Positions 38,536-41,727 of a stretch of DNA of 64,000 nt are shown piece after piece. The notes beneath the pieces are model-generated. The model was not told the origin of the DNA, ran no database searches, and saw nothing but the letters and a program-made list of their open reading frames with translations. How positions within the stretch are numbered: position 1 is the stretch's first letter; every line of letters begins with the position of its first letter. Made by a program: the position numbers and the translations under genes. The stretch is from Fusobacterium massiliense (lineage in GTDB: Bacteria; Fusobacteriota; Fusobacteriia; Fusobacteriales; Fusobacteriaceae): contig NZ_LT608324.1 of assembly GCF_900095705.1 (NCBI RefSeq), positions 62,001-126,000 on the forward strand, written 5' to 3'.

Positions 38536-38570
38536 CCTCCTATAAATTTTTTGCATACAAAAATAGGAGA
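38536..38570 (-). promoter_or_regulatory. Hairpin covering the glmS ribosome site
   Basis: On the minus strand CTCCTAT (38569-38563) pairs perfectly with ATAGGAG (38543-38537), with inner TTTTG/CAAAA, hiding the AGGAGG ribosome site. The same TCTCCTA segment can instead pair with TAGGAGATT at 38722-38714, upstream of the ribozyme cleavage site. Confidence 0.6.
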
Positions 38571-38571
38571 C

Positions 38572-38703
38572 TGTTACGACTATCTTTTTGTCGGGCAAAT
38601 TACTTTGCTTTTTTGTAGATAATGGTTGTAACCACCTTTGGAATATCCGCCGAATTTTCGATAATTCCAATCCTCGTCAACTTAAAAATTAAGTTCTGGC
38701 GCT
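38572..38703 (-). ncRNA. glmS ribozyme riboswitch
   Basis: The minus strand from the cleavage site reads A|GCGCCAGAAC (between 38703 and 38702). It continues with TTTAAGTTGACGAGG, TTATCGA, ATTCGGCGGAT and a GGTTACAACC hairpin. These are the conserved core elements of the glucosamine-6-phosphate-activated self-cleaving glmS ribozyme. The GCAAA/TTTGC hairpin matches the P4.1 position. It lies directly upstream of glmS, as expected. The 3' boundary is approximate. Confidence 0.93.
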
Positions 38704-38728
38704 ATTTTACATGAATCTCCTAGTTTTA

Positions 38729-38757
38729 ATTATATTATATTTTAAGTATTTTAGCAA
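38729..38757 (-). promoter_or_regulatory. Promoter of glmS
   Basis: On the minus strand TTGCTA (38757-38752), 17 bases, TATAAT (38734-38729). The start of transcription would fall near 38722-38724, leaving a leader of about 20 bases before the ribozyme cleavage site. Confidence 0.7.
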
Positions 38758-38864: not shown

Positions 38865-38891
38865 TTAGCAGTCATCTTAAAAGAGTGCTAA
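38865..38891 (+). promoter_or_regulatory. CIRCE operator (HrcA binding site)
   Basis: TTAGCAGTC, nine bases, GAGTGCTAA. The consensus is TTAGCACTC-N9-GAGTGCTAA, so only one base of the left arm differs. Its position just after a promoter and before clpB means that the HrcA repressor should control this heat-shock gene. Confidence 0.88.
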
Positions 38892-38953: not shown

Positions 38954-38998
38954 TAAACCTTTCAATTTTTTTAGAGTTAATTTTTTTAATTGAATAAA

Positions 38999-39106
38999 GT
39001 CTCTTGACAGCCGTATAAGTTCACGAGCTTAATAAACATAGGCTCTTTGGACTAATACGGACGTCAAAGATTAATTTTCATTATTTAATTTTAGACTTTC
39101 CTATAA
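38999..39106 (+). repeat. Dispersed palindromic repeat, copy 12
   Basis: Core 38999-39071 with changes (CACGAGCTTAATAAACAT), tail ending CCTATAA. It lies within the clpB leader, between the CIRCE-controlled promoter and the ribosome site. The 622-base gap 38529-39150 is otherwise filled by the glmS ribozyme, two promoters and the CIRCE site. Confidence 0.92.
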
Positions 39107-39111
39107 AGTAA

Positions 39112-41727
<2,616 letters not shown>

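Follow-up and report, generated by a model that had tools for sequence, protein, structure and literature searches.

The glmS leader of Fusobacterium massiliense

We analysed a 64,000-nucleotide stretch of Fusobacterium massiliense contig NZ_LT608324.1 (hereafter the window, whose positions are used throughout), in which the minus strand carries a glmS ribozyme directly upstream of the glmS gene (Table 1). The covariance-model match to RF00234 spans the full model (1-167) and scores above the curated cut-off. The core AGCGCC and the invariant core columns are kept in this putative ribozyme, which is predicted to cleave itself before GCGCC in a glucosamine-6-phosphate (GlcN6P)-dependent manner. 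The predicted cleavage site was placed by general knowledge of glmS ribozymes, which we assume to apply here, and the GUAAC/GUUAC helix of the consensus fold is presumably the known P3.1 pseudoknot. The GlmS protein encoded downstream shares 85% identity with its Fusobacterium vincentii counterpart.

Table 1. Features of the glmS locus in the window, with the evidence on which each assignment is based
Feature	Position	Strand	Evidence and remarks
Promoter-like TTGCTA-17-TATAAT	38757-38729	-	Consensus scan, 10/12; predicted transcript start ~38725-38721
5' tip strand UAGGAGAUU of helix P0	38722-38714	-	Pairing and covariation; resembles a ribosome site; would be lost on cleavage
glmS ribozyme RF00234	38714-38568	-	Rfam covariance model, 79.6 bits, cut-off 37
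Predicted cleavage site A38703/G38702 in AGCGCC	38703-38702	-	AGCGCC position and established glmS ribozyme knowledge
GUUAC, 5' strand of P3.1-like pseudoknot helix	38632-38628	-	Covarying helix, columns 114-118 x 177-181
GUAAC, 3' strand of P3.1-like helix	38577-38573	-	Directly before the P0 3' strand
P0 3' strand AGUCUCCUA	38572-38564	-	With 38563, also the blocker of the ribosome site
Inner stem UUUUG/CAAAA of the closing hairpin	38562-38558 x 38553-38549	-	Fold of the 3' tail
glmS ribosome site AUAGGAGG, 3' arm of the closing hairpin (helix B)	38543-38536	-	Pairing and fold
U7 tract between ribosome site and start codon	38535-38529	-	Geometry; terminator-like position; strict terminator scan negative
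glmS coding sequence, 607 aa	38528-36705	-	TIGR01135, 779 bits, cut-off 418; directly downstream of the ribozyme

Two mutually exclusive helices share one strand

An initial annotation of this DNA had proposed that a blocker sequence just after the ribozyme pairs either with the glmS ribosome site, the Shine-Dalgarno (SD) sequence, or with a 5' tip lying upstream of the cleavage site near the predicted transcript start. The three segments were located where it had placed them, with the tip reading TAGGAGATT in DNA letters at 38722-38714, TCTCCTA at 38570-38564, and ATAGGAG at 38543-38537. Since the promoter-like site ends at 38729, the tip would begin the predicted transcript within a few bases. 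The strand AGUCUCCUAU (38572-38563) is complementary to both the tip and the glmS SD. Paired with the tip, it forms helix P0 of nine pairs including one G-U, as claimed, at -13.5 kcal/mol. The alternative helix B, in which UCUCCUAU (38570-38563) pairs with the SD, was also found together with its inner stem and could be extended to eight pairs with one U-G. P0 and helix B have seven bases in common (38570-38564) and are therefore mutually exclusive.

Folded on its own, the 3' tail closes the SD (-10.6 kcal/mol), and the minimum-energy fold of the full leader from the predicted start has P0 formed. The leader as a whole is not unusually stable (z -1.1). Among 42 SD-bearing genes of the window, glmS has the strongest pairing between the SD and upstream sequence, and two others are nearly as strong; the gene controls for this pairing, and for the U-tract described below, were drawn from this 64-kb window of one genome. 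Evidence beyond chance comes mainly from cross-species tests rather than from this rank.

The tip helix covaries across Fusobacteriota

The glmS ribozyme was found in 53 of 61 genomes of the family, taken to be Fusobacteriaceae, and in 81 of 98 of the phylum. Leaders from 81 places were reduced to 41 non-redundant leaders (differing by more than ~20%) from two families, the second being a sister family of the same order that we take to be Leptotrichiaceae; the comparisons below refer to these 41 leaders. P0 strands of the same leader paired with a mean energy of -12.8 kcal/mol, compared with -7.3 kcal/mol for swapped strands (z -13.7), and 0 of 20,000 permutations were as good. An ungapped nine-base count gave 7.97 own pairs versus 6.83 (z 8.9). 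The scan registers are still off in a few leaders (L107, L124), which lowers rather than inflates these statistics.

Most tip sequences differ widely among genera, yet they complement the 3' strand of their own leader, as seen in L110 (CTATTAT..GAGGA / TCCTCATAATAG), L124 (GGTCAATAA / TTATTGACC), and L085 (TTAAGGAAAAATA / TATTTTTCCTTAA). Fusobacterium vincentii has the same design, with AUAGGGGAUU against AGUCUCCUGU giving, by eye, ten pairs including G-U wobbles. In the majority of leaders, about 8-12 bases separate the tip strand from the ribozyme core, and the partner strand starts immediately 3' of a conserved GUAAC-like motif. RNAalifold did not find P0 on a MAFFT alignment because MAFFT misaligns the tip strands from one genus to the next, a problem that the swap tests avoid. 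Complementarity of the three segments in relatives had been set beforehand as the test that could refute the proposal; it is kept through large sequence change. On these comparisons, a conserved two-helix architecture in Fusobacteriota glmS leaders appears well supported.

Some genomes carry two glmS ribozymes (L085 with L134 in G039, L086 with L135 in G038; also G087, G088, and G090). Both copies in G038 and G039 lie upstream of a glmS-like start, each with a tip helix. Shortened leaders that seem to be without much of P3/P4 were observed in L164 and L145, where the tip helix is kept and placed near the SD; L164 has 126 bases between the core and the start codon. The leader L180 comes from NZ_CP084075.1, a 2.1-Mb Fusobacterium vincentii entry that PLSDB lists as plasmid pSB055A and that looks chromosomal.

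In the window, the tip, an SD look-alike, is followed by a start-stop AUGUAA (38712-38707, minus strand), and the same arrangement occurs in L093, L098, L102, L108, L118, L126, and L180. A ribosome bound at the look-alike could interfere with a switch in these species. An AUGUAA leader open reading frame was rejected as the main function, since few species carry it.

Closing of the ribosome site in relatives

The P0 3' strand was then paired with the SD region. Despite the near-invariance of the SD, own strands exceeded swapped ones (z -4.6), and against their own shuffled letters the summed z was -11.3. Of the 41 minimum-energy folds, 38 pair the SD with the P0 3' strand, where 20.5 were expected with shuffled and 34.3 with swapped strands. 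Covariation in L091 falls outside the SD itself (UUAGUAUA against UAUACUAG), and the SD helix stays in L084, L089, and L132, whose long inserts between blocker and SD form folds of their own. The proposed complementarity of SD and blocker thus stands in most leaders and fails in some Leptotrichiaceae, which have the tip helix without a good SD helix, so the tip helix may also serve a further function. Two hallmarks of an expression platform are present, namely mutually exclusive helices on one strand with one hiding the SD, and covariation of both helices, the latter missing for helix B in those Leptotrichiaceae.

A motif, GAACATTGAAAATTAAATA, is conserved between blocker and SD in several genera (L090, L092, L110, L120) and also in L033 (Negativicutes). 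It was checked in four genomes, and in G003 and G010 its sole exact match is at glmS.

Modelled access to the ribosome site

SD access was computed in a folding model in which a small hairpin stood in for the ribozyme. Mean modelled access came to 0.21 in cleaved leaders. Uncleaved leaders reached 0.40 when they kept their own tip, 0.23 when given the tip of a different genus, and 0.22 when the tip was shuffled. With longer tails, the means were 0.18 (cleaved) and 0.50 (uncleaved). Given the crude loop energies, these values indicate specificity and direction and no amplitude. The window leader, read in the same way, went from 0.01 cleaved to 0.37 uncleaved with the shorter tails and from 0.01 to 0.67 with the longer ones. 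The initial annotation had the SD free before cleavage and closed after it. In the model folds, the SD would be partly free before and held in the hairpin after, mostly only with the leader's own tip.

Leaders outside Fusobacteriota

The same kind of swap test gave no tip helix signal in 23 Firmicutes leaders (z -0.94, p 0.18), which were picked by GlmS similarity with rough tail limits and B. subtilis left out; the signal in Fusobacteriota is thus not produced by the method itself. Anaerococcus leaders are an exception, as they have GAGG/CCUC in the same places as the P0 strands, with little variation on which a test could draw. A general occurrence of P0 among glmS ribozymes was set aside, being unsupported by these 23 leaders with their rough tail limits, Anaerococcus apart. 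In Alkalithermobacter (L004, L005), an SD-closing hairpin is present (CTCCTTAAAT/ATTTAGGGAG in L004), and a local hairpin before the cleavage site replaces the tip helix.

A cleavage-gated expression platform is proposed

We propose that the Fusobacteriota glmS ribozyme is probably joined to a cleavage-gated expression platform that acts on top of RNA decay. The proposal builds on both helices, their overlap, their conservation and covariation, and the dependence on the own tip in the folding models; from these we infer cleavage, the direction of the switch, displacement of the tip, and an effect on expression. In uncleaved RNA, the SD-like tip would pair with the strand after the ribozyme, the blocker would be kept off the SD, and GlmS would be made. 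The tip and its partner are transcribed before the SD, so P0 would be favoured first. When GlcN6P is plentiful, the ribozyme would cut between tip and core. The cut tip (~20 bases) would then be untethered, a short separate strand competing with an intramolecular hairpin, and once it was displaced, the freed strand would pair with the SD and translation would stop. In lineages with a U-tract, including that of the window, transcripts cut while still nascent could also end at the tract, and RNA decay via the new 5'-OH end would act alongside. This direction fits negative feedback by GlcN6P. A fuller version, in which self-cleavage removes an antisequestor and thereby closes the ribosome site, terminates transcription in U-tract lineages, and exposes the RNA to decay, across Fusobacteriota and Anaerococcus, is put forward tentatively and may well claim too much.

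Missing RNase J as a reason for such a switch was ruled out. RNase J matched in all 61 family genomes, in 58 of them over the cut-off, and the F. massiliense genome encodes RNase J (637 bits, cut-off 400) as well as RNase Y. Decay is therefore still possible, and the switch would be an added layer, in agreement with the initial annotation.

Several points weigh against the proposed platform. The energy model with a hairpin in the ribozyme's place is crude, and in about half of the modelled leaders P0 would be no clear winner at equilibrium. In L142, L145, L162, and L164, P0 persists while helix B is weak or missing. Since swapped strands close the SD too (34.3 of 41 folds), much of helix B rests on a shared CUCC-like motif.

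Transcriptional, structural, and decay-only alternatives

A U-tract missed in the initial annotation lies directly 3' of the closing hairpin, which makes the hairpin also terminator-like in several genera. At least five consecutive U occur between SD and start codon in 15 of the 41 glmS leaders (U7 in the window) and in 0 of the 42 other SD-bearing window genes, leaving glmS as the sole positive of 43; the 3' arm of the hairpin ends at or beside the tract. The closing hairpin could thus be mainly an intrinsic terminator and P0 an antiterminator, the switch being transcriptional and not translational. Such a role would agree with glmS cleavage being described as fast and co-transcriptional (PMC11476745) and with attenuation being possibly over-represented in Fusobacteria (PMC2258182). 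However, the hairpin is kept and the tract missing in 26 of 41 leaders, the stem is short and A-U rich, the gene controls come from one genome only, and a strict consensus scan called no terminator at the window glmS leader despite U7 directly after the hairpin arm. We consider a mainly transcriptional switch unlikely, if worth keeping in view.

Alternatively, P0 may be a structural part of the ribozyme, such as a closing helix by the P3.1-like helix that aids folding, or a cap against nucleases at the 5' end, with SD pairing as a by-product. P0 is kept more widely than helix B, in the four leaders named above; its 3' strand follows directly on the P3.1-like strand; the predicted transcript begins at the P0 strand; and the genome encodes RNase J, which is 5'-end-dependent in other bacteria. 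Yet a pure structure would not need sequence complementary to the SD, which is nevertheless paired in 38 of 41 folds against 20.5 for shuffled strands, and covariation links the blocker to the SD flank (z -4.6). As the whole explanation, this seems improbable. A structural role of P0 and a transcriptional output are the main alternatives, and both overlap with the cleavage-gated platform and are compatible with it.

An ordinary decay-only ribozyme with chance purine/pyrimidine complementarity in A+T-rich DNA, although it is the usual model (PMC11477304, PMC9495366) and would suit the two window genes with nearly equal SD pairing and the unexceptional stability of the whole leader, is very hard to reconcile with the swap and shuffle controls and with the Firmicutes leaders that gave no signal under the same kind of test.

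The neighbouring clpB leader

Upstream of clpB (39154-41727), the plus strand carries TTAGCAGTC-N9-GAGTGCTAA (38865-38891), one mismatch from what we take to be the CIRCE heat-shock operator. The clpB 5' untranslated region also contains a long hairpin (38998-39072, plus strand; -32.2 kcal/mol, z -7.9 versus shuffles) with no Rfam match, which may act as a thermosensor or represent a structured RNA that is not listed.

Relation to known systems and significance

glmS is the textbook case of a riboswitch that has no expression platform. Reviews describe its control by decay alone (PMC11476745, PMC9495366, PMC11477304), and Barrick and Breaker (2007) set it apart from riboswitches with expression platforms (PMC2258182). 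The authors of a June 2026 paper state that they sought such a platform among glmS variants and saw no overlap that covaried (PMC13273304); their analysis took in 30-100 bases 3' of the ribozyme, leaving out the pre-cleavage tip, and the paper prints the accession RF00083, the glmS ribozyme here being RF00234. Our literature search found no report of a glmS tip helix, with the McCown 2011 survey and the Collins 2007 decay paper, which may mention one, outside its reach.

The B. subtilis glmS model, GlcN6P-dependent cleavage followed by RNase J1 decay, involves the same ribozyme family, gene, and presumed sign, with GlcN6P lowering GlmS, and RNase J is present here as well; Fusobacteriota add the helix between tip and post-ribozyme strand and the rival SD helix, neither of which is in the Rfam consensus structure. 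Translational and terminator riboswitch platforms likewise use two exclusive helices on a shared strand to decide SD access and perhaps termination, whereas here the alternative pairing lies in the cut-off leader instead of the aptamer, and catalysis would throw the switch irreversibly, in place of a ligand that binds reversibly. In C. difficile, a c-di-GMP-II riboswitch and a group I self-splicing ribozyme also alter ribosome-site availability by ligand-dependent ribozyme action (PMC11477304), but splicing there creates a ribosome-binding site, while cleavage here would hide one, a competing strand being lost. Engineered hammerhead and twister aptazymes likewise change SD access by self-cleavage in an mRNA leader (PMC5052635); in those, the ribozyme itself masks the SD until cut, and the sign proposed here is the opposite.

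These results suggest that covariation searches on other self-cleaving ribozymes should take in their upstream flanks. If the proposal is true, a one-way ribozyme cut would be convertible into a structural switch via the sequence lost on cleavage. Fusobacteriota could then silence cleaved glmS mRNA before its decay, a control layer that the glmS ribozyme was thought not to have.
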